A DNA stretch of 64,000 nt. It comes from Vicia villosa (taxonomy: Eukaryota > Streptophyta > Magnoliopsida > Fabales > Fabaceae). The stretch spans positions 86,415,251-86,479,250 of the forward strand of contig NC_081185.1 in NCBI RefSeq assembly GCF_029867415.1, read 5' to 3'. Position numbers and translations under genes: made by a program. The notes beneath the pieces were generated by a model. It ran no database searches and was not told the DNA's origin. It saw nothing but the letters and a program-made list of their open reading frames with translations. Shown here piece after piece: positions 5,912 through 62,316 of the stretch; the first letter of the stretch is position 1, and each line of letters opens with the position of its first letter.

Positions 5912-8451
5912 TGTAACACCCCCATTTTATTCGCTATTATTTTAGTAATTATATTGTTTGGCATTTTTAATAATTCTTTATTTATTTAGTTATTATGTGA
6001 TATAATAATTATTTAAGTATTTAATTATGAGTGTGTGTTTGTGTTATTTGGCTTAATTGAGTAATTAGAGAGATATAACTAAATGAGCCTAAGTGATAGA
6101 AACATAATGGATGGATTGGTGGGTTAAGCCCAATTGACATAAGTGAGATAGTAAGAGAAGGTTAGGGTTTTAGAGGTTAATATTTTCATTTGGGGGAAAA
6201 GATAGGAAGAAGAGAAAAGACGCAAAAGGGAAGAGAACAATGGTGGAAGAGAAAAGCTAGAAGAAACCTCATTTTCGCAGCTATGTTTCAGCAAAGAGTC
6301 ACCTTAGCAAAACGGACGTATCTCTCAATCCAACCATTGAATCGTTGCGGTACTTGGACACAACGTTCCTGACTCATAGAGGTAAGTTCTGACCGGAGCG
6401 ATTTTGAGTTTGAGGATTTTAAGTTCGTCTGATAAGCTGATTTCCGAACTGGTTTTTAGGTGTGTCTCTAAATTATGTTTGAAGGATTTATTTTGGAGAA
6501 AAGCTTAGAGCTATGGTGAAAGAGTCCATATTTGCCAAGGTAAGGGTGGGGTTCTTTCATGCTAAAGGGTTGTATGATAGTATGTTATGGTGGGTTTGAT
6601 TCTATACTTTGATATCCATGTCCTTCTATGTTGCAATTTTGGGTATTTGATGATTTGTTGGAATGTGATGATATAAATGTGATAAGTTGTGTGCAATTGA
6701 CAATCTATGTGTATTAGAATGTTGTGTTTGTTGTGGGTAAACCATTGATAGTGAAATAATGAGTTTTGGTTGTAGAATTGGAAAATAATGGAATAGAAAT
6801 ATAATAGTTGAATTGAAATTAATATAGTTTGATTATTAATTGGATAATTAAATTATTAGTTGAATTAATTCCAATAAGCCTATGTGATTGGAATATACTT
6901 GGACTTGGACCAATTATTCGATTTATCGGTAAATTACGATATTTTGAGAAATTGACCGTTATTGTGATTTGGTTGAATATTCAAGTTGAGAATAATATAT
7001 TATTATGCCAATGATGTTGTTTTGATAATTAACATTATTTCTACTTGATTTAGTTGATGATTAAAAGTCGATTTGATTTACTTGACATATTGGCATATTG
7101 AGATTATTTTGAGAATTGACCAAAAATTGTGATTTCGGTTTGGATGTCTTTGTTGCGAGTAATATTGTGATTGCCAATATGATTATTATTGTGCATTGTT
7201 ATGTGATTAACCTTATGGTATGAATCCTAGCTAATTGTCGTTAGTTTAGTAGATTATGATGATAATTGTGATGACCGTGTTAATATGTGAAATTGAGTAA
7301 TTGTGCCAATGTGCCGAAACATGATGATAATTGCAATGATCTTGATGATATGCGAATTGTATATTTGTGACGATTTTGTGAATACGTGATGTTGCATATA
7401 TTTGTGAGGACGATTTTGTGACTAAGTGAAGATGAAATATTATAGTGACGTGAATTACCTCGAATAAATGGTAATGTGATTGTGATATAAGCTTATGCCT
7501 TATGACGATACGTGATTTTGATGAGTATGTTGTGGTGTCTTGTTTGTCGAGTTACATTCCATATGCATACTCTGTGACGGCCTGAAAACTATGGCAAACA
7601 TGACGGCCTGAAAACTATGGCAAACATGACGGGCTAAATGGCAATTGGTGACGGGGGCTGAAGCTCCGATTGGTACCACATACATATGCATAGTTCGAGT
7701 CGCATTCGAGTTTGTATACCGAGTTGCATTCGATTCATTGTTATGATGTGTGGATGCATAGTTTGTGAAGTTGAATTCATTTGATATTTATTATTGATGT
7801 GTTGTAGATATGATGTACGTGAAATATGATGAGACTGTGAATATATATGTATTAATGATATATGTGTATAAGTTGGAATATATGATCCATGTTGTTGTCG
7901 TGATGCAAATTGCTTATATTGAGAAGTGGTGAATTGTGTATGATATTATCTTGCTATATCTATTATCATACTTTCCTTTATACTGTTTGATATCTCACCC
8001 CTTCTGCTGATGTTTCCCCTACCATGGGAAATGGGCAGGTACTCAAGTATATCTATGGAAGTTTGTAGCTTCATCGTGTCCAGTTGGTGTGTCGCTCTGA
8101 TACGTAGCACTTGGGGGGTTGTCTATACTGTTGTTTCTATGTTGTTCATGTTTTAGTTATTGAGTTCCAAATTGGATAATGAGAAGTACTATGATGTTTG
8201 AAGTTGTTTCCAATTAAATAATATGATTTGTTTATAAAGTCGAATGTTATGATTCCGCTGCATATTAAAATGAAGTTGGTTTGTCTAAGAGCTGTTATAA
8301 GTTGTTTTGTGCTTCTCTGAGATTAAAGTGCTATGTATCTGTTTATGAGTTGTTATATGAAGTAAGTGTGATATCCCAAATGCTTGTTGATAGTTTTTAA
8401 AATACTCTGATTTCTCGCATGATATTTTTGGGTAGTATTTGGGGTGTTACA
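5912..8451 (+). mobile_element. Chromovirus C 5' LTR
   Basis: 2540 bp, tgtaacaccccc...ggggtgttaca. Comparison of the first 785 bp with the other LTR shows about 11 differences by eye (near 1.4%). It contains a 26-bp tandem duplication (gacggcctgaaaactatggc...) at about 7576-7627. Confidence 0.93.
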
Positions 8452-22468: not shown

Positions 22469-23462
22469 GTGAGGGTATTTTGGGTTTTTCACCAGAGGTG
22501 ACCAAGAAAAGAGGGAGGTGGGTAAAGAAATTTCCAATTTTTAAGGTATGGAGGAGTTCTAGGACTTTTTGGAAACCTCAAAATGTCCTCTATAAGCCAC
22601 TTTGGAATCTTTTTTTATTTGAGTATTTTATCCTGATGATATGGGCTTTGACAAAATACTTCTTTTGGTTGACTTTCAAAAAGGACCTGTAATGTTTTGA
22701 TCCATATCTCTCAAATGAAGCATTTTTAGACTTGGCATGTGAGAGACAAAGTTGTAGAGAATTCAATTTCCTTTAAATTGAGATTTGGATGGAAAATTTC
22801 TGATGTTCCATGTAAAAGTTATGGCTGGTCAAAATTTAGTTGACTTTAGGTCAAAAAATCATAATTTAGAAACTTTAGGTTTTGTTGTTTTCTGATCTTT
22901 CCTTGATGAATCATGATCAATCCTTGATCAAATGATGAATGATACTTCAAAATAAGGATGTTGACAAAAAATCAGGAATTTTGACTGCACTTTGACCACA
23001 GTTGACTTTTAGGTCAAACTAGTCGACTGTTGACTTTCTAAATAATTGACTGGGCAATCCTTGGAATTGAAGCTTGTACTTTGCCATAGAGATAGTTTGA
23101 AACATCATAAGCCATATGAAATCCATTGGAGACTTTGATTCATTGATTTTCTTTAGAGAATTCAAAACCCTAGTTCAGGAGATCATTGTTTAGGAGAGTG
23201 TGTCCTTGAGTTTTGAACTTTGGTATGAATTTGAAAGTGGAAATGGGATGGGAAAATTTTGGGGTATGACAGTAGTCATTCACTTATGACTACATCGTAT
23301 ACCACACAAATGGAAACCACTCTTGCACCTAGCGCGCGTGACCCTTAGGTCTGGGGTTCGAATCACCCTCGCTCCAGACCTTTTTATTTCTTTTATTTTT
23401 CAGTGTTTCTCAACTTGTTTTAACATGTATTGAATCTGAATGGACTCAATGAAAAATGCACG

Positions 23463-38990: not shown

Positions 38991-39019
38991 GTTTTTAGTG
39001 AATCCCTTTTAGCACTCCT

Positions 39020-39710
39020 AGTGCTATTTCATACAAGTGTTTCATACTTGAACTTTCATTGAAACTTTTTTCTGCACATTATTCCATACCAATTCAAAAA
39101 AGTTTCTCATTCATACATAAACACTTTAGAACTATTATATCATTGTAAATTTTCTTGCTTGAAAGAGAAGATCAATCCTAGTGATTGATATATGTTCATC
39201 AACTTTACTACTCAAATTTATTTCCAGATTTTGGTTATTATTGACTTGCTATCTATGATTGTTGGAAGCAAGGGTTTTTGATTAGTGACGGGATTGTTAC
39301 CATAATCAAGTTAGTAAATCCAAGAGGATTGTTCTTGATGGTTGAAATCTTGTTGTCCAGGATTGTTGGAAACAAGTGAGTCATTAAGGGGGGATTGTTC
39401 TCTTAGTGTGCTTAGTGAAAATCCAAGAGGATTGTTCTAGGTGTCTGTGTGGGTCTTGTACAAGTCACAAACAATAGTAAAATCTCTTTCATGTTGAAAG
39501 GGGACTGAAGTACTCTCGGACAGTGAGGGGAACCAGTATACATCATTGTGTTCTTTACTTTTCCGCATTTACGCTTTCACAAATCATAACCAGAAAAGAA
39601 AGTAACACATTTCTAAACTCTTGCACCAAACCAGAAAAATAAGAACAACTTGTTTCTAAAACCGGATAAATCTTCAAAATTATAATTCAATCCACCTCTT
39701 AGGCGCACTC
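39020..39710 (+). mobile_element. Ty1/copia LTR, 3' fragment
   Basis: Contains the aatccaagaggattgttc repeat pair, ttccgcatttacgctttca and ends near aattcaatccacctcttagg. This layout is typical of R/U5 of Angela/SIRE-like copia LTRs. No PBS follows. The 5' limit is uncertain. Confidence 0.6.
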
Positions 39711-40466
39711 TTATGCTTACATAATAGAAAACATTTTTTCATAATTTTTGGATCAAAGGATAAACATAAATAAATTTAAATTCATTAAGGAATGAATAAA
39801 ACTAAAGAAATGACATATTTAACTATTAATTTAAGTTAATATGTCACAAAATTCTGAAAAATAAAAATATGAAAAATAATTAGACTCACATAAGATCATA
39901 TTCTAATTTTTTTTGAAATTTTTGAGCTACCAAAACTAATTAAAATAAAATCAGAAAACTAAATAAAATAAATAAGAAAACAAAAGGAAAATTTAAAAGA
40001 AAAATGGTCATGGTTTCCACGCCAGGGCCCCACCTGACACCCTGACCAATCAAAAACGCCACCAATCATTTGCAAAACGACAAAGAAAATGATCCGGCCA
40101 ATCAGCGATCGTCTTATTCATTTAACAACCCAGAAAACCAAAACCCTATCCCAGGTTCAACATAGCAACTTCAGATCCTTCATACACACTCATTTCTCAA
40201 CGAAATCGCATGATCTAAACATCAAACTTAATCACGAAATTACAAGGATCAATATGATAGCAATAAATTTTTCAAACAAAGAAAGATCAACGAGAAATCT
40301 GGGTATAAAGTCACGGTTTCATTCAAAAGCGTAAAAAACTCAAGAACTTCAAACATCAATTTCAACATAAATAAACCCAACAATCATCTAAAACATATTG
40401 TTTGGCTCAACTAAGATACATAGGCATGATTTATGAACCTTAAATCACTAGTATGAGAGCTTGAAG
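39711..40466. other. Unassigned, possibly Ogre-like LTR sequence (minus)
   Basis: AT-rich with the patch ccagggccccacctgacacc near 40021-40040. This resembles, in reverse, the agggccccacattt block of LTR H. It continues after the chimeric element at 43780. Assignment tentative. Confidence 0.35.
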
Positions 40467-40471
40467 TTCCA

Positions 40472-40759
40472 TGATAGGGAGATTGATAGAATAATTTATT
40501 ATTAGTTTTATTAGTATTTTGATGTATTAGATGTTATTATGTTTTCTAGAATATTCTTAGGATAGTCTGGGCTTTAATTAGTATTGGGCCTTTAGTTTAT
40601 TATCCATTAGTATTATTATATATATGTAGTGTCTTTGACACTTGAGATCAATAAAAAAGAAATCAAAGTTTATCTTTATCTTTTATTTACTTTTAATGTT
40701 CTTCCCCTTTTAGTGTAGAAACCCTAACTCTTAGTTTTGATAGGAAAATCTTCCTATCA
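40472..40759 (+). mobile_element. 5' LTR of the chimeric element
   Basis: 288 bp. TATA-like tattattatatatatg near 40611, an agtgtc-ttt-gacact hairpin at about 40628-40642 and a polyadenylation-like aataaa at 40650-40655. Confidence 0.92.
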
Positions 40760-40761
40760 AT

Positions 40762-40774
40762 TGGTGCTTTCATT
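40762..40774 (+). other. Primer-binding-site-like sequence
   Basis: tggtgctttcatt two bases after the LTR. Sites of this type occur in Tat/Retand-like gypsy elements, suggesting the helper may be a gypsy element. Confidence 0.6.
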
Positions 40775-41047
40775 ATGTACTCAAATCCTCCTATGAATTA
40801 TGCTTATCATACACCTTCATTTCCATACCACTCTACCATAGACACCACTCCTACCACACCCTCCTTTCCATATTTCCCATGGGAAATCTTTACACCTTCT
40901 TACACTCATATTGGATCATCATCACCAAGTTTGTATCCATATCATGGATATTCACCACATCATTCATATATTTATCGATCTCATTCACATATTTATCCAA
41001 ATTATTATAACAACATTCATGAACCACACAGGCACCACACAACATAA
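40775..41047 (+). CDS. Leader reading frame, Tyr/His/Pro/Ser-rich (90 residues)
   Basis: ATG directly after the PBS-like site. The product (MYSNPPMNYAYHTPSFPYHS...) is low in complexity and rich in Y, H, P and S. I do not recognise a family. It may be a remnant of the original element's gag start or part of another captured gene. Whether it is translated is unknown. Confidence 0.4.
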   Translation: MYSNPPMNYAYHTPSFPYHSTIDTTPTTPSFPYFPWEIFTPSYTHIGSSSPSLYPYHGYSPHHSYIYRSHSHIYPNYYNNIHEPHRHHTT

Positions 41048-41161
41048 CAACTTTTGCCCTCACACACACCATTCACCCTACAGACACTCAACAATTCCAC
41101 CTATATGGGTAGCTACTACCCATAAGCAACACATCAATTTCACTATCCAACAATTTCACAA

Positions 41162-41616
41162 GTGAAAAACAAATCATTTAAGTGGTCTAAGTTGAGATTC
41201 TCCTCCTTATTATCGGTTAAAACCGAGAAACTCAAAAGAGGAAAAAGAAGAGCTATAACCAAAAAGGAAAAGAGAGCTTCTGAACCAAAAACTCAATTTT
41301 CGACGGCATTACCAACCATTTCACCAGAACCACAAATGCTCGATTCAAAAACCGAACCTCCTGACAACAATGACCTCACAGTGTATGACTACAATGAAGA
41401 TCACGAAATCGTGGAGCTCGACTCTATGGAACTGCTCGCTGAACATCTCCATTTCTGTGAGATTTGCGGGAAAGGTTTCAAGCGCGACGCGAATATCCGG
41501 ATGCACATGCGAGCGCACGGGAACAAATTCAAGACACCTGAAGTGTTGGCGAAACCTTTAGACTACGGCACCACACATCGCAGTTCGACGCGGTTCTCAT
41601 GCCCGTTTGAAGATGA
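41162..41616 (+). pseudogene. Captured STOP1-like C2H2 zinc-finger fragment
   Basis: The open frame runs upstream of the first in-frame ATG at 41336 and continues to 41974. The block IVELDSMELLAEHLHFCEIC, GKGFKRDANIRMHMRAHGNK, FKTPEVLAKP and STRFSCPFE matches the first zinc-finger region of plant STOP1-like transcription factors (proton and aluminium tolerance). The finger C-x2-C-x12-H-x3-H is intact at 41456-41518. The family normally has further fingers after RFSCPF; here the sequence switches to unrelated acidic, Gln-rich sequence, so only an internal part was captured. Upstream basic residues may also come from the donor. Confidence 0.8.
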
Positions 41617-41974
41617 TGATGAACAACAACAACAACACGAAGAAATTGATTCATCATGCACTCACAATAACAGAATCAGAAGTGACGATATCATTCCTAG
41701 CTACGATTTTCAACCGATTCGTTCACTCCCTGATTCTTCCCCCAATTTCGGTTCTTCTTTTGCGAAAAATTGGAACTCCAATTTCAACCTTGACCACCGG
41801 AGAAATCTTAAGCCAGGAGATTTGGAAAAGGCACAACTTGGTCTCTGCCACAATTACAATAGAGCAAGAGTGAAGTTTAATGATTTTCCAGATCCAGTTG
41901 TTGGTGAAGAACAAAGAGCAACAACCGCTTCATCACTACCACCTCCAAAGCCACCTGACTCAATCACGGTATGA
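41617..41974 (+). pseudogene. Captured fragment of unknown origin
   Basis: In frame with the zinc-finger piece (DDDEQQQQHEEID ... FQPIRSLPDSSPNFGSSFAK ... SLPPPKPPDSITV, stop at 41974). It has the look of ordinary plant protein sequence rather than a retroelement protein. Donor gene not recognised. Confidence 0.5.
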
Positions 41975-42019
41975 GTTTCACTGCTGCCACTTGAACGAAC
42001 TCACCATTATTTTGGTGTA

Positions 42020-42373
42020 ATGCGGAAACAAAATTCTATTGCTACTCTGATTAGTTTCTCTGCTACTCATACTCCTGTTACTTTTGTTAATCTTTTTCCT
42101 GGTTTATTGAAATTTGGTGCTTCTAGAATTGCTCATTTGATTTATGGTTTTCTTCCCAAAATTGGTGATGAGTATGTTAATGATGTGTTTGTTGTCAGCT
42201 CTGCGATACTTATGTTTGTTGATCTTGGTTGTACGAATTATGCTCGTAAGGTTCTCGACCAATGTTTGAACAAAAATACTAAGAATTGGAATACTATGAT
42301 TGCTGCTTATGTTCAACATAATTTACCACTTGAAGCAATTGATGTGTTTGTTCAAGCCTTGGATTCGGAGGAG
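42020..42373 (+). pseudogene. Captured PPR-protein fragment 1
   Basis: Starts ATG 42020. YVNDVFVVSSAILMFVDLGC, TNYARKVLDQCLNKNTKNWN and TMIAAYVQHNLPLEAIDVFV show the repeat signature of plant pentatricopeptide-repeat proteins of the PLS class (close in flavour to At3g22150-like proteins). Donor proteins are organellar RNA-binding factors several hundred residues long; only about 118 residues remain here, ending in LDSEE where a second PPR-type sequence is joined in frame. Confidence 0.8.
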
Positions 42374-42595
42374 GATGTGAACGATTTGTTTGAGGCTTGG
42401 GTTAGGTCGTTGGAAAAAAATGGGAAACCTAATAAGTCGGATGTGAATTTGTTGAATCATTATCTTAGGGTGAATCTTATGATGAGAGTTTCTGCTGCTG
42501 ATTTGCTTGAATTGTTGGCTCAAACGGAGCATTTTGATGTTTTGCCGAATACCGCGCCGTTTAATTTGGTTCTTAAGGCTATGCATCAGGCTAGG
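42374..42595 (+). pseudogene. Captured PPR-like fragment 2
   Basis: In frame with the previous piece: DVNDLFEAWVRSLEKNGKPN, LLNHYLRVNLMM and FDVLPNTAPFNLVLKAMHQA. The last part reads as another PPR-type helix pair (xLPNTxxFNLVLKAMxxA), different in style from fragment 1, so it probably derives from another PPR gene. The donor is not identified. Confidence 0.6.
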
Positions 42596-43321
42596 GTTAG
42601 TGGTGGAAAGTGGACTGATCAGGAGACACTTCTTCTCGTTGAAGCATTGGAACTTTATAAAGAAAATTGGAATGAAATTGCATGTTGGAACTAAATCAAA
42701 AGCTCAGTGCATATTGCATTTTGTTCAAATGCCAATTGAGGATAGCTTTGTTGACTGTGATGAAGATGTTGATGCTGGTTGCAAGGAAACGGCAGATTCC
42801 GCTGGAACAAACAACAATTTGTCTGTAGATGAAGATAAAGATAAAGATGGTTCAGAAGTTATTGAGAATGACACTAACATCAAAGTCCATGATGATACTT
42901 TTCAGGCTGAAGATGTTAAAGTGAAAGATAATCAAGAGGAGAATCCAAAGTTACAAGATGGTAGTGATGAGAAAACTAATGAGGGAACTTTTAAATTAGA
43001 AGATGACATTAAAGTAAAGTTGGATGAGGAAGTAGATAATGAATGTGTTATAAATGCTTTTAAGGAAGCATTTGCATCTGTTGGTTATTCTCTTGAACCT
43101 GAAGGCCCGTCTTCATTTGCCAAAAGGGTAATCCTGTCATGGCATTGGCAGCTTTCCTTTCGCAATTGGTGGGTTCTGATGTGGATGTTGCTTTAGCTTA
43201 TAACTACATAAAATCTTTGTCTGGAAATTCTCCTGGCACTGAGATTTCTTCAAGGTGTTGCTTTCTTCTAGAAGATCCACCAGATGATAAGAAAGAAACA
43301 ACTACTTCTGAGAGGGATTTT
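42596..43321 (+). pseudogene. Captured SWI3D-like fragment (SANT region and downstream)
   Basis: WTDQETLLLVEALELYKENW is the start of the SANT domain of the SWI/SNF chromatin-remodelling subunit SWI3D. It continues in other frames with KAQCILHFVQMPIEDSFVDC, CKETAD, INAFKEAFASVGYSLEPEGP, then MALAAFLSQLVGSDVDVALA, YNYIKSLSGN and LEDPPDDKKETTTSERDF. Two small deletions shift the frame, near 42683 and near 43125. The acidic stretch in between is repetitive, as in the family. About 240 codons of donor sequence run without an evident intron. Non-functional as a protein. Confidence 0.88.
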
Positions 43322-43399
43322 AATATTGCCGCTAGGCTTGCTGCCTCTACATCCTCAGCTCTCATGCTTACATCTGTTCTTTCTTCCCTTGTCGCTGAA
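43322..43399 (+). pseudogene. Captured fragment resembling RPRD/pre-mRNA-domain proteins
   Basis: NIAARLAASTSSALMLTSVL and SSLVAE resemble a conserved stretch of plant regulation-of-nuclear-pre-mRNA (CID/RPRD) proteins. It is joined in frame to the SWI3D piece. Short, so the donor call is tentative. Confidence 0.45.
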
Positions 43400-43487
43400 G
43401 TTATGCAATGGGATCCGGGAACAGTATCTCCACTCTCTTATTTATTTTTGAACCTTGAGGACAAGGTTCATGTGAACCCCGCGGCAA
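43400..43487 (+). pseudogene. Last captured piece before the 3' LTR, origin unknown
   Basis: VMQWDPGTVSPLSYLFLNLE and DKVHVNPAA in frame with the preceding fragments. The open frame runs a few codons into the LTR. Donor not recognised; no clear polypurine tract follows. Confidence 0.4.
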
Positions 43488-43774
43488 TGATAGGGAAATT
43501 GATAGAATAATTTATTATTATTTTATTAGTATTTTGATGTATTAGATGTTATTATGTTTTCTAGAATATTCTTAGGATAGTTTGGGCTTTAATTAGTATT
43601 GGGCCTTTAGTTTATTATCCATTAGTATTATTATATATATGTAGTGTCTTTGACACTTGAGATCAATCAAAAAGAAATCAAAGTTTATCTTTATCTTTTA
43701 TTTACTTTTAATGTTCTTCCCCTTTCAGTGTAGAAACCCTAACTCTTAGTTTTGATAGGAAAATCTTCCTATCA
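43488..43774 (+). mobile_element. 3' LTR of the chimeric element
   Basis: 287 bp, nearly identical to 40472-40759, ending cctatca before the target duplication ttcca (43775-43779). Confidence 0.92.
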
Positions 43775-43779
43775 TTCCA

Positions 43780-44567
43780 TGGAAGCTTACCTCTAAGTGA
43801 AAAATAAATTTATTGTGCCTCTAAATACAAAGCTTAGAAATACATTTAATCTTCTTCTACAAGCTCCAAAGATGAGGAAATGAGTAAGAATAAAGATCTG
43901 GATCAAAGGTTTTGAGCGTTTTGCGAAAAAACTTTAAAAGGGAAGAGAGAGCTCAAGTTGATTTTCTCTGAGAATCAAAACGTGTACTGAAGATGAGAGA
44001 ATGAAGAGCTTAAATAGAAGCTCAAAGTGAGGGCCTTGAGGTCATTACACACTTGAGAATGTTGGAGGGAACTCTTAGTCATTTTTTTTCCAGAATTTGG
44101 TGAAGTGTGGGTGTTTCTTGCGTTTCATGCAGGTACTAAGGCCTTCAAGCTGCATTTTGGTGAGCTCAAGGGGTTTTGTAAGTGTGATTGATGAGGTGGA
44201 GGTTGGCACGTGGGGGAAGAAAAAAGTAGAGGATTTGAATTGTTACCAAAATTGGTAATTCTGTCAACTATTATGCATGTTTGGTACGTGTCTTGCTTGG
44301 CCAAAAAGAGTAAAGGGAATGCAGGGGTAACGCATGAGTGTGAGGTACACAAGAATTCCGCAACAGAAATGCAATGTGTGCATCAAACTTCAAAATCTGG
44401 CTTGGCACCTACAGGCCTCGTGCCAATGTTCAATGTCCTCAACTTTATGCCTAATTCTCCCTTATTCTTTCATCAATTTAAATAAGCTTGCATTCTAAGA
44501 AAAGCCAGAGATGATGAGCTTTAATGTTGGTGTAGTTTCTCTAAGATTGACATGCATTTTGGTAAAA
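43780..44567. other. Unassigned TE-like sequence
   Basis: Direct continuation of 39711-40471. No coding similarity. It ends at the insertion site of solo LTR G. Confidence 0.4.
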
Positions 44568-44572
44568 CCAAC

Positions 44573-47500
44573 TGTAGCGGGGAAAATCTGAGATCTAAGC
44601 CATTAATTGACTCGACTCAATATTTCAGTGAAAGTCGCCACCACACTTTATTATTTCCAAAGGAAAAGGGAAAAGAACGAAAAAACCCAAAGTTTGTTTT
44701 TAAAACAAAAAGAGATCTTAGGTACGGGTGTTGATTATACGAGGGGAAGGTTTTAAGCACCCCTCATATCTGTGGTATCCCACAGGAACCTTTTTGAAAA
44801 TCTGTGTTTTGTAAAAGATATCGTGTGCAAAAGAAATGGTTTGTTTGATTTTTAAAATAAGCTCGGCAAGACATTATATCTTGTGCCTACATACCTCCTC
44901 AGTGCAATGGAGAAGTCAGAGCTAATGTAGTTCCGCTTTTTTAAAAAACGTTTGAAAAAGGTATAAACACATTTACCATCATCGGGGCGAATACTCAGCC
45001 ATTGATCTTAAACATGAGAACGAACGAGTTCTTTGCGCCACTAATGAGAGAAGGGCGCCAACTTGGATAAACTCGACAAGTATGCCACTAGCTCTCTCAC
45101 GTGGAAAAGATTTCATCGTGTCAATCAATATTAAGATCGTGGGGCATCGCAACTAATGACAATGATTAATCGTGCTTACTTTTTGAAAGAAAATGCCAAC
45201 AAGGGCTAAATATAGTTTTAAAGAAGATTTTAAAAGGGATTTCAAACATAAAAAGTTTTTTAGAAAAAAGAGAGGAGACTTTGAAAATTTAAGAAGTGGG
45301 AGGAGATGAAGAGGCTATCCTAGTGTGGGAAATTAAAAGTTTAAGGAAAACGATCTGACCAAAATAAGAAGTCAACACTTGACCGACGCATTACCACTTG
45401 GGGATCCAGATGAACTTATTGTCTTTAGCACCACTTGAACACATCATAAAATTCTAACGAAAATCGGGCAGAGTAACGACTGTATATGGGCGAAATCCTT
45501 ATCACGATGCCTTGGAATTAACCATCAAGGGCTTTCGAGGAAATACCTGCACACACAAACAGACAACAATCCAATGCCAGACAGACAGAATAACAACAGA
45601 ACAACAACAACATAACAGAGTCCAGAGATACTAAGTCCAACAAGTCCAAGTCTCCAAAATGCTCAGGATAGTAACCAATAGTCCATAGCCTTATGTGTTT
45701 TTTTTAGATTTTAAGTTGTTTATTAATGTTTTAGCACAAAAGTAGAGTATGGTCCAAGTGGACAAAAAGAAAATAGCGGAAACATAAACATAGCGTCCAA
45801 ATGGACAAAGAGAAAATAGCGGAAACATAAACATATGAATAATAAAATAAAGCATAAAGCGAGAAATAATAAAGAACAATATAATAAAGTGCGGAAATTA
45901 AAGTCAATTGTTAGATGTTAAAGATAACCATCTTGAAACTTGTCAAGTATGTTATCAAAGTTAGTAATAAAGATCGATGGTGAGTGAAGGATGTTCTCGG
46001 ATTTAAATTCAATGAAAGTTTATCAGAAGCTTGATAAAATCATAGCGACTACACAATAAACTTCCATAAGTCTTAAATCAACCGCATACAATTCTCTTCC
46101 ATATTTGATCTTTTTATTCGGGACACGAAATGTTGCGCTATGTTAAGCAGATCGCCAAGTGACTTATGTAGAAGTCACCCTACAACGAGGCCGGTCAACA
46201 ATCTTTGTGCTAATGCATGCTAGAAAACGATATGTAGATCGTTCTCCAAAAGCAATACCGCACGAAAAGAAAATAGGTAGCGGTCTCATCTTCATCTAGA
46301 ATCCAAAAGAATTCTCATGATGTTGAAGATTTTCATCGACCAAAAGAAAAAGAAATAAAGATGGAACCACATTAAAAGTTCCTTCCATCTTTAAGTTCAA
46401 TCACTTAATATTGCGGATTAGGATTTTCATCCCATCAACGCCCTAAGTCCATTGAATTTAAAGAGGAATTAGACCTCTAAATTTGTGATTCAAAGAAAAA
46501 TAAGAATGGAGTAGGAGAAGAGAGAGATATTGAAAAATCATCACAAACTTTCACCAAATGGATCATCAAGTATTAAATCCAAAAGAAAATTAAAATAATT
46601 TTTGGTATTTTTTGATATTATAAAAATAGTAAAACTAATACTAATATAGTTTTTTTTTTTTGTATTTTTGAATATTTGTAATGAAAACAAACTTTTAAAG
46701 AAATAAGTATATATGTGAAAACAAATTATATGGGGTTTAAAAGATAAAAGGGGATGTAACCAAGGATTGGGCGCTGCTGGGCTTAACCGTGGAGGCCCAA
46801 ACTGAATTTGAAGTCTATGAGGAAGGCGTGGTCTGAATGAAGGGTACACAGGAGAAAACGGAATGGGCCTTATGAATCCACTTGAGCCCAATTTGCCAAA
46901 TAACACAAAAAGAAGCCCTAGGTCTGTTTGGAAGCATCCCACCTGTCACACTTCTTCAGCATTCCACGATTTCTCTTTTCCTCTCTCCCCTGTTTCACGC
47001 TAAAACTCTCATTCTCCTCTCTGCTCAAACTATTCTCTCAACCCAAACTTCAATCAATTTCTCCTCTTCTTCAGTTCTGCAAACACACAAACAACAAACA
47101 ATAAACAGAGAGTAATCAGTTTTAATTTTCAGATCTTCTTCTTCGTTTCTGATTTTCGCCCGTGTTGTTGCTGATGGAATCGATTTGAAACAGAGTTTGC
47201 AAGTGATGGTTGATAGATGCGAGTTCGGTGAAGGTTGTTGAAGTTTTGTGATGTATGAAGGATATGAACGAAATCGGCGATGGTGAAGTGAAGAATTGAT
47301 GTATGAAGTTGTTCGGTTTATGAAGGGTGAGTTCGGTGAGGTTGATTGGTGACGAGCGATGTTGGTGATGATGGTGTTGGATCGATGATGCGAGGTTGTT
47401 GTGAGGCCGTGATGTGGTTGGTTTGGATTGTGAATCGATAATGATTTGTTTGAAGGAATTACTGAGATGCAAGTTTTGGTTCAGATTTGCGATGTTCAAT

Positions 47501-48639: not shown

Positions 48640-49458
48640 CCAACCTAGCAGAAACATGTTGAATAAAAAGAAATATCATTCAGTTTTCAACATGTTGAAC
48701 AAGATGTCACAACATTACAGGCATGACATCGTGCTTACTGGGGCATGCTTGTTGGAGCTGATCTGTCAAGATATATCAGTTGATTTGTTAGCTACAGAAT
48801 ATTGTGGAATATTCAGTTAGCTTAGGTGTATCCAAGATCGACTCAATCAGAGATATTTGTTGGTTTATACAATATCTATAATTAGAGACAATTCAGGAAA
48901 GATTGGATTAAAAACCTATTTACTTGGAGATCAAGCAACAGACTTTGTGCAACCTCTTTGCTCCGGTTTTAGGCCCAACTCAGTCAATACTAATTCTATA
49001 AATAGACTGGCCTAAACCTAGTTTTGAGTGGAACTAATTTTTGTATTTTTTAAGGTTATAGTAATCCCTATTTTAGTTGTGTTGTAAGTTCCATGTTTTG
49101 TTCATTCGCAAACTTGTAGGTGTTGAATGATGTTTAATCTCCAAAGCAGTTAAGCAAGGAGAGTAGTGTCGTTCTCACAAGCTTTTAAGCATTGAGAATT
49201 ATGTGTCTTGGAAGAGTGTCTTCTACTTTTTATTGTTTGTGGTGTTTGTCGCAGGTTGTGACGGTGGGGATTTGAGGAGGGCCTCATACCTAGGCGAGTC
49301 TTAGGTAGAAGTCATAGGAAGGGTAGTGATTAAGTGAGATGTTGTAAACGGAGGAGTTTAGCTTCGAATTGATACTATCGTATATTGATTTCATCCCTGG
49401 CTTGATAGCCCCTGGAGTAGGAAGGTTTTTCCGAACTGGGTAAACAATTCCTTGTGTC

Positions 49459-52400
49459 TGTCATACCCCAAAATTTTCCCATCTCATTTCACTTTCAAAC
49501 TCATACAATGATTCAAGGCTCATGGGTTAACCTAAGGCACACTATCCTAATCAAAGACCTCCTGAACTGGGGTTTTGCATTCTCTTAAGAAAATTGATGA
49601 ATCAAGGGCTCCAATGAATTTCATATGTCTTATTAGGTTTCAACTATCCCCATGCCAAAATTCAAGCATCAATTCCAAAGGTTGCTCAGTCAATTGCTCA
49701 GATAGTCAACAGTCGACTAGTTTGACCTAAAAGTCAATTATGATCAAAGTACAGTTAAAATTCCTGATTTTTGGTCAACATCCTTATTTTGTAGAATCAT
49801 TCATCATTTGATCAAATTTTGATCATGATTCATCAAGAAAAGTCCAGAAATCAACAAAACTCATAGTTTCTAAATTAGGGTTTTGTAGAAGAAAGTCAAC
49901 AGAACTTTGACTGATCATACCTTTCACATGGTTTATCAGAAATTGTCCAAACAAAGCTCATTCCTAAGGAAATTCAAGTATCTACAACTTTGATGTTGGG
50001 CCCAAGACCAAGAAATGCACCAGTTGAGAGATATGGGCCAAAACATTACAGGTCCTTCTAGAAGATCGCAAAAAGCTATTTTTTGTCAAGAGCAATATCA
50101 TCAAGATAAAATCTCCAAATGGAAAATATGTTCCAATGTAGATTTTAGAGGACATCTTGGGCTTTCTAAAAAGTCGTAGAACACTTCCATACAATAAAAA
50201 TTGAAGGAGTTATGGCTTGCACAAGTTGGGAGATTTTGAAAAAATGCACAAAGTAAATACTAGCAAAAAAAAGAATTGTTGGACCAATGGGCCTAGGAGA
50301 TGGGTTTCAAACGTGTTTGTGGGCTATTTTAAGACTCTTGAATCAATTATTTCATTTTTACAATATTTATTTTATTTATTTGAATTTTAATTCAATTAAA
50401 TATTAATAAGTCATATAAAATATGAAATTATTTGTTTAAAATCAAAGATTGGATTTCCAATTAACTTCAAACATCCAATATGTCCAAATATACCATTAAA
50501 ACACGTGAAAGAAGGATGGAAGAGAGATTGGACCAAAATAGCAAGATTTTATGCAAGTTTCAATCAAATATTTTCACCAATTTTTCTCTCACAAATCATT
50601 CCATATCCAAGCTAATTCTCAACCCTAATATCACCCTCTATATAAACCTAACAAGATCAGACGAAAAATAGAAGGAAGAGGCTAGGGTTTTCAAGGAAAG
50701 AAAATTACTCAAAGTGGTGCAACTTTAAAACTCGTGTTCTAGCCACTATCAATCAAAGTTAGCTGCTCATCCATCCTCCTGGAAATCTCAGAAATCCCTC
50801 CCAACTATCCTTGAAGCATAAGGCGCATCCACTAGTGCAGCCTAACATCACCGATTTGTACATGAATTTAAATTTCAAATTGTTCGTTTGAAACCATTTA
50901 AATGCGTTTTGTATATGCATACGTGTTCATAATCATGTTTAGGTTTGTTTAGACCCATCGTGTTGAAGGTTTGTTGCAGATATGAGGATATGCCATGGCT
51001 AGGGCTCGCGAACTGTCAAGCTTCGTATGGCATGATAGAGGCATCCTGGAGAGCAAATAATTAGACTGTTAGATTCGCAATGTTTGATTTACTCGATCTG
51101 GGTTGTTTTTTTCTTTTGCACTCGCGTGTTTTCGCAGGTTGTACGAAGATGCTCACCGGAGAAGATGACCAGAGCTAGGGCTCCGGTCGTGAGCAGTGTA
51201 GGCGGAATATTTGACCAAAGACGTGGACGCTGCGTGTGTTCTCATTGGCCAGTCAAAATCAGAACCTCCCCTCTCTTCTATTGATTGGTCACGCTTGAAC
51301 ACTAGGGCCCCACATTTGACTCTTTTTGAAATTTAATTTGATTTTTAATGTTTCATATTTATTGATTGGTGTGGATTTATATGTCAGTTCATGATTCCGG
51401 TACATATGGCATTGGTGAAAGGGTAGCAAAGTGAGAGACCTGTGTTCGAACCTGGACGGCGACACACATATTTTTTACAAGTCGTTGATTCCCTTGCTCT
51501 CCCTAATCCAGCGCATAAAGTCTGACACGCGCCTACGATACACCCTCATTCATGCACCATCAGATCCATCAAGAAATAAATCCAACGCGCACAAATACGC
51601 TGGTGCACCATGGACTCTCTCAGCGCGCCACACAGGATCAGGCACCAGGTTTTTTAATCTTTTTATTATTGTTTATATGATTTTTTTAACTTTTTTTTTT
51701 CTACTACACATTTTTCAAATTAAGTTAGTTTATAATTTAAATTTAGATTTAATAAATAATTTAGATTTAGTTTTTAATTAATAATTTAAATTTAGTATAA
51801 TTATATTTAAAATTAGGTTAATAATTAATTAGGTTTATAATTAGTTTATAATTTTATTAACTAGATTAGTTAGGTTAAATAATTTAATAATTAGGATTAG
51901 TCTTAACAATTAGATAATTAATTTAGGTTTAATTAGATATATTAGATTTTAATATTTAGGTTAAATAATTTAGGTTAATATTTAGAATTTAGGGTTTTAT
52001 TTAATCAATTAACATTTTCGTAATTTTAATTTAGTTTAACTGATTTAGTGCAATTAGGCTTAGTAATTACCCTCAAACTCCAAAAATCATAGATAACTCT
52101 GGAAACTTATGGGTAGGTGTTGCCCATTAACTATAGGTTTAGGTTTACCCTTTTGTAATCAAACATTGAATTTTTTCAAACGCGATTCTCTTCTCACCTC
52201 ATACTCCCTTGATTGTCGCATGCCTTTAATTTTAAATTGTTTATTTTATTTAAATTTCGCTTTTTATTATTTATTTTAAATTCTAGAAAATGTGCATAGG
52301 TTTGCAAAAGGTTTTTTTGTAATAGTAATTAGGATTTATTTTCTGCCCTACAGGTGTTTATTGTAATAGCATAGAATCTTTAATTCTGTTTATTTTTCTG

Positions 52401-53299
52401 TTGTGGTTAGTAATCCTAGGGAGTGCAAGCCTTGCTAAAATTAACCTAGTATCACTCTAATTACAAGATAAAATATTGGAATATTGATCACCTGATTGTG
52501 CCACACACACCTTTAGGGTAACTTCTTTTGTTGCCTATTGCCATACAAATTTTAAAATAGTCAAGTCCGTCGAATACGAGGATACCTAAAGCAGATGTCG
52601 CTCTCAGTTCATAAATCATCATAAGATCATAGTCCCTTCGAAGTTTCCTAACAGAAAAATGATCTTGTTCCTCATTGTTGCCTTGGTAAATGATGATTGT
52701 CCCCATGTCTAAGGTATCCTCGTTGGTTGCCTAAAGAATAATGACTATTCTATCCTTCCCTAAGGACTACCTGCCCTCTTTATGGTAGGGACACTTTTAT
52801 GGCGAACGATACTTCCTCGATGACCCTTTTTATATCCAATGAAAAGACTTCCTTTCCTCCTATGGTATGGATAGCCCTTTCAAACTGAAAATCTGAAAGA
52901 GCAGAAATCTTAAAATTAGGGTAGTTGCTACTAATTGCTTGCTCTGATTTAAATTCAAACTCTTTTTTCCCACTTCTTTTCAAAACTACTTTCGAAAAGG
53001 CTACGCTTATTTACAAGCTAAAGTTCTTATTCAAAAACATTTTCTAATGACACATAACACTTCAGACCTTTTGAATACAAAGTGAGCTAAGCAATTAAGA
53101 GCCCATGGATAACCATGGATACAAAGGGTGCTTACACCTTCTTATTGTATAACCTACCCCCCCCCCCCCCCGAACTCAAAGTCTTTTAAAATGTCTTTTT
53201 CAGTTCTTTTAGCCTTTCTTATTGGATAAAATAAAAGTCGGCGGCAACTCTTGCTATCCGCAACATTTTTTTAAAAGTCAGTTCTCCCACCGTGTTACA
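49459..53299 (+). mobile_element. Ogre-type H 5' LTR
   Basis: tgtcatacccc...gtgttaca. Relative to the 3' LTR it has two extra blocks, about 75 bp near 50175-50250 and about 90 bp near 50835-50925. It also has a run of 15 C (53157-53171) where the 3' LTR has five. Confidence 0.93.
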
Positions 53300-53303
53300 G
53301 AAC

Positions 53304-57310: not shown

Positions 57311-57344
57311 AGACAAACTTAATCATGACACTCAATTTAGAAAA

Positions 57345-57992
57345 GATCACGAAAATGGAGTCACGACAATTGAGTCACGACAATGGAGTCACGACAATGG
57401 AGTCACAACGATGGAGTCACGAAAATTGAGTCACGACAATAGAGTCATGACAATGGAGTCACGACAATGGAGTCACGACAATGAAGTCACGATAATGGAG
57501 TCACGACGACGGAGTGCGATAATAAAGTCACAACAATGGAGTCACGATAATGGAGTCCTGACAATGGAGTCACGACAATGGAGTCACGACAATGGAGTCA
57601 CGACAATGAACTCACGACAATGGAGTCACGACAATGAAGTCACGACAATTGAGTCACGACAATGGAGTCACGACAATTGAGTCACGACGATGGAGTCACG
57701 ACAATGGAGTCACGACAATGGAGTCACGACAATGGCGTCATGTCGATGGAGTCACGACAATTGAGTCACGACAATGGAGTCACGTCGATGGAGTCACGAC
57801 AATTGAGTCACGACAATGAAGTCACAACAATGGAGTCACGGCAATGAAGTCACGACAATTGAGTCACAACAATGAATTTACGACAATGGAGTCACGACAA
57901 TGAAGTCACGAAATGAAGTCACGACAATGAAGTCACGACAATTGAGTCACGAAAATGAAGTCACGACAATGGAGTTACGACAATGGAGTCAC
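57345..57992. repeat. 14-bp minisatellite (gagtcacgacaatg)n
   Basis: About 45 copies of a 14-bp unit with scattered variants (gacaattgagtcac, gacgatggagtcac, gtcgatggagtcac). An eroded extension reaches from 58022 to about 58110. It appears as an open frame (MESRQWSHDN...) only because the unit is stop-free in several frames; it is not a gene. Confidence 0.95.
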
Positions 57993-58205
57993 ATACATAA
58001 TCCCGGTATTCAGTTCAGAAACGATCATGACAATAGAATCACGGCGACGGAGTCACGATAATTGAGTCACGACAATGAATTTATGACAATAAAGTCACGA
58101 TAATCAATTCACTCTTATGATCCAGATGCTCAGGGCAATCGAGCCAACAACTTAATTCTGACACCACAGATTCGGTCTATTGTACAACTCAGTCTGACAC
58201 ATGTT

Positions 58206-58427: not shown

Positions 58428-58440
58428 GAACAGGGGCAAC
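58428..58440 (+). other. Polypurine tract of H
   Basis: gaacaggggcaac immediately before the 3' LTR, the form usual in Ogre elements. Confidence 0.85.
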
Positions 58441-61400
58441 TGTCATACCCCAAAATTTGCCCATCTCATTTCACTTTCAAACTCATACAATGATTCAAGG
58501 CTCAAGGGTTAACCTAAGGCACACTCTCCTAATCAAAGACCTCCAGAACTAGGGTTTTGCGTTCTCTTAAGAAAATTGATGAATCAAGGGCTCCAATGGA
58601 TTTCATATGGCTTATTAGGTTTCAAACTATCTCCATGCAAAAAAATTCAAGCTTCAATTCCAAAGGTTGCTCAATCAATTGCTCAGATAGTCAACAGTCG
58701 ACTAGTTTGACCTAAAAGTCAATTATGATCAAAGTACAGTCAAAATTCCTGATTTTTGGTCAACATCCTTATTTTGTAGAATCATTCATCATTTGATCAA
58801 ATTTTGATCATGATTCATCAAGAAAAGTCCAGAAATCAACAAAACTCATAGTTTCTAAATTAGGGTTTTGTAGAAGAAAGTCAACAGAACTTTGACTGAT
58901 CATATCTTTCACATGGTTTATCAGAAATTGTCCAAACAAAGCTCATTCCTAAGGAAATTCAATTATCTTCAACTTTGATGTTGGGCCCAAGACCAAGAAA
59001 TGCACCAGTTGAGAGATATGGGCCAAAACATTACAGGTCCTTCTAGAAGATCGCAAAAAGCTATTTTTTGTCAGGAGCAATATCATCAAGATAAAATCTC
59101 CAAATGGAAAATATGTTCCAAAGTGGCTTTTAGAGGACATCTTGGGCTTTTAAGAAAATGCACAAAGTCAATATGTGCAAAAAAATGAATTGTTGGACCA
59201 ATGGGCCTAAGAGATGGGTTTCAAACGTGTTTGTGGGCTATTTTAAGACTATTGAATCAATTATTTTATTTTTATAATATTTATTTTATTTTTTTGAGTT
59301 TTAATTCAATTAACTATTAATAAGTCATATAAAATATGAAATAATTTGTTTAAAATCAAAGGTTGGATTTCCAATTAACTTCAATCACCCAATATGTTCA
59401 AATATACCATTAAAACACGTGAAAGAAAGATGGAAGTGAGATTGGACCAAAATAGCAAGATTTGATGCAAGTTTCGATCAAATATTTTCACCAATTTTTC
59501 TCTCACAAATCATTCCATATCCAAGCTAATTCTCAACCCTAATCTCACCCTCTATATAAACCTAAGAAGATCAGACGAAAAATAGAAGGAAGAGGCTAGG
59601 GTTTTCAAGGAAAGAAAATTACTCAAAGTGGTGCAACTTCAAAACTCGTGTTCTAGCCACTATCAATCAAAGTTAGCTGCTCATCCATCCTCCTGGAAAT
59701 CTAGGGAGTCCCTCCCAACTATCCTTGAAGCATAAGGCGCATCCAATCGTGTTCATAATCATGTTTAGGTTTGTTTAGTCCCATCGTGTTGAAGGTTTGT
59801 AGCAGATTTGAGGATATGCCATGGCTAGGGCTCGCGAATTGTCAAGCTTCGTATGGCATGATAGGGGCATCCTGGAGACCAAATAATTAGACCATTAGAT
59901 TCACAATGTTTGATTTACAAGATCTGGGTTGTTTTATTCTTTTACACTCGCGTCTTTTCGCAGGTTGTACGAAGATGCTCACCAGAGAAGATGACCGGAG
60001 CTAGAGCTTCGGTCGTGAACAATGTAGGCGGAATATTTGACCAAAAACATGGACGTTGCGTGTGTTCTCATTGGCCAGTAAAAATCAGAGCCTCCTCTCT
60101 CTTCTATTGATTGGTCACGCCTGAACACTAGGGCCCCACATTTGACTTTTTTTGAAATTTAATTTGAATTTTAATGTTTCATGTTTATTGATTGGTGTGG
60201 ATTTATATGTCAGTTCATGATTCCGGTACAGATGGCATTGGTGAAAGGATCTCAAAGTGAGAGACCTGTGTTCGAACCAGAACGGCGACGCATATACTAT
60301 TTACAAGTCGTTTATTCCCTTGCTTTCCCTGATCCAGAGCATAAAGTCTCACACGCGCCTACGATACACCCTCATTCATGCACCATCAGATCCATCAAGC
60401 AATAAATCCAACGTGCACAAATACGCTGGTGCACCATGGACTCTCCCAGCGCGCCACACAGGATCAGGCACCAGGTTTTTTAATCTTTTTATTATTATTT
60501 ATATTATTTTTTTACTTTTTTTTTCTACTACACATTTTTCAAATTAAGTTAGTTTATAATTTATATTTAGATTTAATAAATATTTTTGATTTAGTTCTTA
60601 ATTAATAATTTAAATTTAGTATAATTAATTTTAAAATTAAGTTTATAATTAGTTTTTAATTTTATTAACTAGATTAATTAGGTTAAATAATTTAATAATT
60701 AGGATTAGTCTTAACAATTAGATAATTAATTTAGGTTTAATTAGATAAATTAGATTTTAATATTTAGGTTAAATAATTTAGATTAATATTTAGAATTTAG
60801 GGTTTTATTTAATCAATTAACATTTTCGTAATTTTAATTTAGTTTAAGTGATTTAGTGCAATTAGGCTTAGTAATTACCCTCAAACTTCAAAAATCATAG
60901 ATAACCCTAGAAACTTATTGGTAGGTGTTGCCCATTAACTGTAGGTTTAGGTTTACCCTTTTGTAATCAAACATTGAATTTCTTCAAACGCGATTCTCTT
61001 CTCACCTCATACTCCCTTGATTTTCGCATGCATTTAATTTTAAATTGTTTATTTTATTTAAATTTCGTTTTTTATTATTTATTTTAAATTCTAGAAAATG
61101 TGTATAGGTTTGCAAAAGGTTTTTTTGTAATAGTAATTAGGATTTATTTTCTGCCCTACAGGTGTTTATCGTAATAGCGTAGGATCTTTAATTCTGTTTA
61201 TTTTTCTGCTGTGGTTAGTAATCCTAGGGAGTGCAAGCCTTGCTAAAATTAACCTATATCACTCTAATTAAATGATAAAATATTTGAATATTGATCACCC
61301 GATTGGGCCACACACACAGCTTTAGGGTAACCTCTTTTGTTGCCTGTTACCTTACAAATTTTAAAATAGTCAAGTCCCTCGAATACGAGGATACCTAAAG

Positions 61401-62098
61401 CAAATGTCGCTCTCAGTTCATAAATTATCATAAGATCATAGTCCCTTCGAAGTTGCCTAATAGAAAAATGATCTTGTCCCTAGATGTTGCCTCGGTAAAT
61501 GATGATTGTCCCCATTGCTAAGGTATCCTCGCTGGTTGCCTAAAGAATAATGACTATTTTACCCTTCCCTAAGGACTGCCTGCCCTCTTTATGGTAGGGA
61601 CAGTTTAATGGCGAACGATACTTCCTCGGTGACCCTTTTTATATCCAATGAAAGGACTTCCTACCCTCCTATGGTATGGATAGCCCTTTCAAACTGAAAA
61701 GCTGAAAGAACAGAAATCTTAAAATTAGGGTAGTTGCTACTAATTGCTTGCTCTGATTTAAATTCAAACTCTTTTTCCCACTTCTTTTCAAAACTATGTT
61801 CAAAAAGGATACGCTTATTTACAAGCTAAAGTCCGTATTCAAAAATATTTTTCTAATCACACACTACACTTCAAACCTTTTAAATACAAAGTGAGCTAAG
61901 CAATTAAGAGCCCATGAATAACCATAGATACAAAGGGTGCTTACATCTTCCCTTTGTATAACCTACCCCCGAACTCAAAGTCTTTTAAAAGGTCTTTTTA
62001 TGTTCTTTTAGCCTTTCTTATTGGATAAAATAAAAGTCGGTGGCGACTCTTGCTATCCGCAACATTTTTTTAAAAGTCAGTTCTCCCACAGTGTTAGA
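58441..62098 (+). mobile_element. Ogre-type H 3' LTR
   Basis: 3658 bp, high similarity to the 5' LTR, with the two deletions described there. TATA-like tctatataaac near 59550. A tRNA-like segment at 60232-60290 corresponds to 51406-51466 in the 5' LTR (box B-like gttcgaacc). Confidence 0.92.
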
Positions 62099-62316
62099 GT
62101 GTCCTTTACCTTTCTGCACTATTTTCCATTACTACTGTCATCTTGCTCCATTAATTTCATCAACAGATATTTGTGTCGTGACATCTCATTCGACATCACA
62201 TATATGATACCATAATTTTAGTTGGTGTTGATAGATATTAGAAATGAAGTTTGGAAATGAATGGAATCTTGGCACGAAAGTTGGTGATGATGGCTGGTGA
62301 GTCTGCACGCGTGTTG

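Follow-up and report, generated by a model that had tools for sequence, protein, structure and literature searches.

The stretch of DNA considered here, referred to as the window, comprises 64,000 nucleotides of Vicia villosa (hairy vetch) contig NC_081185.1 (positions 86,415,251 to 86,479,250, forward strand). At window positions 40472-43774 lies a 3.3-kb long terminal repeat (LTR) element whose interior is a chain of host-gene pieces. The element belongs to a recently active V. villosa family. Very probably this LTR family is non-autonomous and takes up pieces of spliced mRNA one after another through template switching, while selection favours an open frame.

Anatomy of the element

The ends of the element, its leader open reading frame (ORF) and its 3' end are arranged as follows.

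40467..40471, unstranded: 5' target site duplication (TSD) TTCCA; identical copy at 43775-43779
40472..40759, + strand: 5' LTR, 288 bp, TGATAGG...CCTATCA (letters read and repeat-pair search)
40762..40774, + strand: putative primer binding site TGGTGCTTTCATT (letters read; compared across the family)
40775..41047, + strand: leader ORF (MYSNPPMNYAYH...), family-specific, opening the family frame; stop at 41045
43400..43487, + strand: conserved family 3' end, QWDPGTxSPLSYLF...; GAACCTTGAGGACAAGGTTC; CCCCGCGGCAA adjoining the LTR (family alignment)
43488..43774, + strand: 3' LTR, 287 bp, ends TGATAGG...CCTATCA (letters read and repeat-pair search)
43775..43779, unstranded: 3' TSD TTCCA (letters read)

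Near-identical LTRs (4 substitutions over 286 aligned positions), TG..CA ends and a short TSD place the element among LTR retrotransposons. An earlier reading of the locus, made from the letters alone and here called the sequence-only reading, had described a perfect TSD and few LTR differences, which hold on both sides of the insertion, and two 288-bp LTRs, of which the 3' copy is in fact 287 bp. Directly 3' of the LTR, T(G/A)GTGCTTTCAT is found as a putative primer site in all 13 complete elements examined, which are the window element and 12 sisters chosen by LTR similarity (L009-L020). The primer-like site is identical or nearly so in the 12 sisters, with a TAGTG variant in L012, L014 and L019. 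The primer may be tRNA-Thr; a tRNA search of the window gave none.

Pfam searches of the three sense frames and the antisense strand found no gag/pol or other retroelement domain in the window element, as the sequence-only reading had noted. Autonomous LTR elements encode gag-pol, which this element appears to lack. Terminal-repeat retrotransposons in miniature are very small and without coding capacity, a class that does not fit an element of 3.3 kb with chimeric ORFs.

Host-gene cargo and its donors

Donors and family members were sought in the whole V. villosa genome (2.03 Gb in 1888 contigs, labelled C1, C2 and so on). The recognised cargo of the window element consists of C2H2, two PPR, SWI3D and CID pieces, all on the + strand.

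41126..41974, + strand: C2H2-containing ORF ("STOP1-like"), PPPKPPD spacer at its end; parts recur in other members
42032..42372, + strand: PPR-A piece; closest gene C7:88089515-88089855(-), 90.3%
42374..42596, + strand: PPR-B piece (At1g26460-like); donor C2:102668571-102668793(-), 91.5%
42590..43318, + strand: SWI3D piece; donor C74:952184-953317(-), two blocks, 91% and 95%
42590..42596, + strand: PPR-B/SWI3D junction; both donors GCTGGGG (7-nt microhomology), element GCTAGGG
43147..43148, + strand: SWI3D exon-exon junction; a GT..AG intron of 375 nt interrupts the donor at this point and is missing from the element
43324..43400, + strand: CID-gene piece (RPRD-like); C4:11406430-11406506, 95%

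Pfam recognises PPR (E 5e-6), Myb/SANT (E 1e-5) and C2H2 (E 2e-4, under its cutoff) in the element, and a separate domain match supports the SWI3/SMARCC identity of the SWI3D region. Donors were located for four pieces, with E values of 3e-129 for PPR-A, 5e-84 for PPR-B, 3e-239 and 1e-69 for SWI3D (query 42590-43487) and 3e-25 for CID. Judged from these alignments, the likeness of the cargo to its donors exceeds chance. The gene closest to PPR-A has a frame open across the whole 1 kb examined, and the source of PPR-B is an ATG-bearing ORF, likely the first exon, of the C2 gene. The CID stretch is also present in L009 and L010, and next to the C4 match lie blocks at 11394907, 11396575 and 11406224 to which the CID piece of L009 aligns. 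Donor DNA was thus found for each of the PPR-type, SWI3D and RPRD-like pieces that the sequence-only reading had placed on the + strand. The C2H2 finger that it reported was also found, but the name STOP1 is that reading's own and was not confirmed. Seven loci inspected (L030-L036) among 43 places matching the C2H2 piece yielded no donor; all seven carry LTR or leader matches of the vetch element family beside the C2H2 match. Pieces of several unrelated host genes inside an LTR element are characteristic of the Bs1 type discussed below, and the window element contains them.

An ordinary gene with the same fragment order, which would have spoken against a chimera, was ruled out by protein and genome searches. 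A protein search with the PPR/SWI3D frame gave 83 proteins, none with this order (best coverage 55%), and full query stretches matched only the window element among the genome places scored.

Family members and mosaic cargo

The sequence-only reading described one chimera and proposed a search for further copies. The chimera is not a lone one: the window element is one of a family. Its LTR has at least 42 matches in the genome, many paired 1.8-3.4 kb apart, in a search that scored 40 of 1681 candidates. Across the 13 complete elements the same LTR ends enclose different cargoes. LTR substitutions number 0-4 in 11 of them, 8 in L016 and 30 in L012, where the pairing of LTRs may join two different elements. 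The sisters mostly have TSDs, which are unclear in L010 and L012.

Leader DNA of the window element is common to six of the 12 sisters (L009, L010, L014, L017, L018 and L019). The last 43-161 nt of its interior are common to eight, and in the other four a related ACCTTGAGGACAAGGTT stretch forms the end. The middles of the sisters differ, except in two near-copy pairs, L009/L010 and L014/L017. Within the second pair the shared stretches are 96% and 99% alike, and an 825-nt stretch present in L017 alone (interior ~263-1090) breaks its long frame. A C2H2-tail plus PPR-A segment is common to the window element and its sibling L041 (92.6% over 769 nt). Since the leader, C2H2, PPR-A and CID-tail pieces all recur in relatives, the window copy inherited much of its chain.

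Host pieces were recognised by Pfam at E<=0.001 in seven of the 13 complete elements, the search of the 12 sisters covering their longest sense ORFs. Those of the sisters are listed here.

L009, L010: copper amine oxidase and CID
L015: short-chain dehydrogenase and sugar transporter
L019: lipoxygenase and HSP70
L014, L017: DUF7796

One weak gag match in the long ORF of L011 (E 0.02) is the sole gag-pol-type match among the long ORFs of the 12 sisters; L013, L016 and L020 show coiled-coil-like matches only, under Pfam cutoffs.

Ten proteins annotated in V. villosa, 386-998 residues long (P0084-P0093), also carry family sequence, and eight of them match the leader (P0086-P0093). They appear publicly as "uncharacterized proteins" with odd domain combinations (LOC131634591 and others). 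Pfam pieces in four of them are as follows; P0088 gave no Pfam match.

P0089: exportin (Cse1, IBN_N) and SEO
P0087: kinase and ketol-acid reductoisomerase
P0091: HSP70, epimerase, beta-glucan exohydrolase and arginine decarboxylase
P0092: DNMT1, beta-glucan exohydrolase and plasma membrane H+-ATPase

Searches for proteins resembling family ORFs yielded 9 and 8 hits, every one of them from V. villosa, from which restriction to this species does not follow.

Some members stand in tandem with regular spacing, namely at C762:177720-210054 (~2.9 kb), C1:251360395-251366686 (2926 bp) and C7:15186022-15192151 (3.0 kb). The spacing looks as if LTR-to-LTR recombination had built arrays of whole elements.

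Absence of donor introns

The intron of the SWI3D donor, GTAAGT...CTGCAG, has ATGGCATTG before it and GCAGCTTTC after it, and the element runs across this point without interruption. The copper amine oxidase (CuAO) piece of L009 is without two introns of the closest gene on C1, and the lipoxygenase (LOX) piece of L019 is without two introns of a gene in the C7 LOX cluster. At base level, therefore, five of five donor introns are precisely absent (SWI3D 1, LOX 2, CuAO 2). Three more are absent by coordinates only, at least two in the CID gene and one in a probable donor, C281/C473. PPR-A and PPR-B match one donor block each and span no intron, and so are uninformative on this point. No retained donor intron, the finding that the sequence-only reading had held to argue against an RNA route, was seen among the pieces compared with donors. 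Because donor introns are exactly absent in SWI3D and sister pieces, that reading's proposal of joining through spliced RNA is supported. Pieces that lack donor introns are a further mark of the Bs1 type, seen here for one intron in the window element and in its sisters.

Capture at the level of DNA, by gene conversion, aberrant repair or Pack-type transposition, would be the alternative to an RNA route, and the consulted portion of one source describes it for Pack-type elements and Helitrons (PMC13317346). Against it stand the precise loss of introns, the sense-strand position of the recognised cargo and the LTR structure with TSDs. DNA-level capture is highly improbable, and it was rejected for these pieces on the absent introns. 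The element is likewise no Pack-type DNA transposon, its LTRs being direct and donor introns absent; no inverted repeat pair of at least 20 nt was found within 39000-45500.

Junctions between pieces

Two junctions of the window element can be tested with both donors, PPR-A/PPR-B and PPR-B/SWI3D, and the second carries the 7-nt microhomology. The SWI3D piece ends where its donor reads GAGAG/GTATGC, likely an exon end. In L019 the LOX piece jumps within an exon at a 10-nt donor repeat, TGCTGTTGTT, with the frame kept. The 284-bp gap in the LOX donor is, on base-level reading, an intron plus this exonic jump, which rules out a single intron. Template switching, as proposed in the sequence-only reading, is supported because microhomology lies at one of the two window junctions and at the 10-nt repeat in the LOX piece.

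One reading frame

The leader ORF, the C2H2 ORF, PPR-A, PPR-B and both SWI3D exons have one common codon phase, which is the native phase of all three donors tested. The sequence-only reading had described the pieces as partly fused in frame, with the PPR-PPR-SWI3D start as one frame of 224 residues. The fusion and the single frame stand, but this frame measures 239 codons from stop to stop, and the shared phase reaches from the leader through the SWI3D exons, with later damage. In the window copy three stops interrupt the family frame before 42692, and two small deletions in the SWI3D piece shift ~42678-43118 into another frame. The window element is a slightly decayed family member.

Nine interiors (window, L009, L019, L011, L015, L028, L014, L041 and L033) were scanned with Pfam in three sense frames, with stops read as X. 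Every match at E<=0.001 shares the frame of the leader; the other two frames gave no such match. They amount to about 15 pieces, some matches hitting the same piece. L011 had no match at this threshold in any sense frame, and the antisense of three interiors had no Pfam match.

Long frames are also common. In 15 of 16 interiors the longest sense ORF is longer than in any of 200 dinucleotide shuffles; the exception is L013, with 317 as against up to 326 in the shuffles. Two elements have zero stops over the entire interior (960 and 563 codons), and the longest ORFs reach 960 residues among complete elements and 1123 in the genome scan. In the subfamily with a gag-like leader, for which 150 of 1389 candidates were scored, the open frame reaches at least 500 residues at 50 places, 700 at 39 and 900 at 14, with a median of 338 and a maximum of 1123.

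In-frame chains could in principle arise without selection, if pieces derived from exons are joined and elements with long ORFs happen to be the ones examined. Re-phased chains do still yield long ORFs, and in the window element the observed value equals the expected one. L041 and L033 were chosen via cargo searches, not at random, and P0084-P0093 came from ORF searches. The confinement of Pfam domains to the leader's frame, the agreement of donor and leader phases, and re-phasing P values of 0.01-0.02 at six pieces in five of eight elements speak against this explanation, which is decidedly improbable.

Substitution ratios in leader and cargo

The ratio of nonsynonymous to synonymous substitution (dN/dS) is 0.16-0.58 in the leader (10 pairs of 5 elements) and 1.05 for the SWI3D piece against its donor. 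These values suggest to us constraint on the leader and, behind it, what appears to be open-frame filler; the counts are small.

The chimeric ORFs might instead be useful proteins, leader and fused domains being translated and selected for a host or element function, an idea that has been put forward for maize Bs1. The low leader dN/dS, the long and in two cases stop-free frames, the ten annotated proteins and cargo dN/dS of 0.49-0.66 in three comparisons would all suit this idea. The SWI3D ratio does not, nor does the fact that cargo varies between members and that domains are cut within their profile. Low dN/dS against a donor, moreover, partly reflects constraint on the donor branch. A role as useful proteins is unlikely.

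Proposed mechanism

The family keeps only LTRs, a primer-like site, the leader ORF and a short 3' end. A helper element would supply capsid, reverse transcriptase and integrase; like the sequence-only reading, we infer that another element's enzymes drove the movement. Host mRNAs and sister RNAs would be packaged together, and reverse transcriptase would jump between these templates at short homologies. Chimeras with one frame open from the leader to the 3' end would survive better, most likely because element RNA that contains a premature stop is degraded or used inefficiently, or because the leader needs to be made. The cargo would mostly be open-frame filler and not a working enzyme. Helper-driven switching onto co-packaged RNAs would explain the sense orientation, intron loss, microhomology and mosaic sharing.

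Several observations weigh against serial capture with frame selection. The helper was not found among L021-L028 or via the gag-like leader search: L026, L027 and L028 proved to be further family copies or a chimera; in L023-L025 an LTR and leader are present, with no second LTR within about 4.7 kb; L021 and L022 have one LTR only; and the search with the gag-like leader turned up another chimera, L043. No Pfam host domain was recognised in six of the 13 complete elements (L011, L012, L013, L016, L018 and L020). At the PPR-A/PPR-B junction, comparison of both donors showed no clear microhomology. For the window element by itself the re-phasing simulation lacks significance (P 0.56 and 0.46), and across the seven other elements it gives P 0.01-0.21. 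Leader dS exceeds 0.9, near saturation, in five of the 10 pairs. Finally, dN/dS is 0.53 and 0.49 for PPR-A and PPR-B against their donors and 0.66 for the window element against L041; these values lie below 1, and some amino-acid constraint on the cargo is therefore possible.

L023 contains, at ~7976-8338 and ~3 kb downstream of its family LTR and leader, a frame of 121 residues that on visual inspection looks like the end of a Ty1/copia polymerase; this frame may point to the helper or belong to a nested insertion.

The chances appear evenly balanced for a broader claim, that the family is a standing exon-shuffling system. Such a system would harvest spliced mRNA pieces serially, recombine them among members and select for frame behind the leader, and would probably encode hundreds of chimeras of 500-1100 residues, some of them perhaps made. 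The figure of hundreds is an extrapolation from the 50 long frames among 150 places scored, with 1389 candidates in all.

Other repeats in the window

Long direct copies, 89-99% alike and ~8.8-9.0 kb apart, occupy 49458-53300 and 58440-62099, with a partial inverted copy at 22747-23202. A minisatellite with a 14-bp unit (TCACGACAATGGAG-like) lies at 57313-58034. Direct-repeat pairs of 98-99% (5912-6211/10910-11209, 11694-11993/17232-17531 and 6692-7132/18780-19224) are perhaps LTRs or nested elements.

Comparison with known systems

Literature searches, with most subscription papers outside reach, surfaced no paper naming the vetch family, and the consulted main text of the V. villosa var. glabrescens genome paper contains neither "chimer" nor "non-autonomous". 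In the portions of the literature surveyed, accounts of gene capture by LTR elements consist mainly of single chimeras and catalogues. A young family with donors, microhomology, lost introns and an open frame makes template switching onto plant mRNA testable. A second testable question is whether a non-autonomous element needs an open frame, for escape from RNA decay or for packaging. Retroelement chimeras are present in some annotated V. villosa "uncharacterized proteins", with consequences for gene counts and domain-architecture databases.

Host-gene capture by LTR elements is shared with rice and sorghum, where 672 and 1343 captured genes are reported (Jiang & Ramachandran 2013, PMC3726574). 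The abstract of that study describes captured genes that were counted and tested for expression and selection, and does not mention a single family with serial in-frame chains. For Veju and BARE-2, template-switch chimeras between LTR elements have been described and co-packaged RNAs proposed (PMC13317346), and LTR-associated retrocopies in dicots point to RNA-based copying (PMC4838847). As far as the consulted portions describe them, these are element-element chimeras or single-gene retrocopies, one with an intron kept, whereas the vetch family carries multi-gene chains inside a transposing family.

The closest known case is maize Bs1 (Jin & Bennetzen 1994; Elrouby & Bureau 2001, 2010), described in the available excerpts as one chimera of three genes, with pieces of a plasma membrane ATPase, a xylan endohydrolase and a beta-1,3-glucanase fused in one hybrid ORF (PMC13317346, PMC7264820). 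Like Bs1, the vetch LTR element holds several host-gene pieces fused in frame, and the vetch chimera P0092 also has a plasma membrane H+-ATPase piece. Unlike Bs1 as there described, the vetch family comprises many different chains that draw on common modules, and it combines a constrained leader with an open frame that recurs among members. The vetch system works alike but as a diversifying family, and its scale, serial reshuffling and one-frame rule seem to be new.

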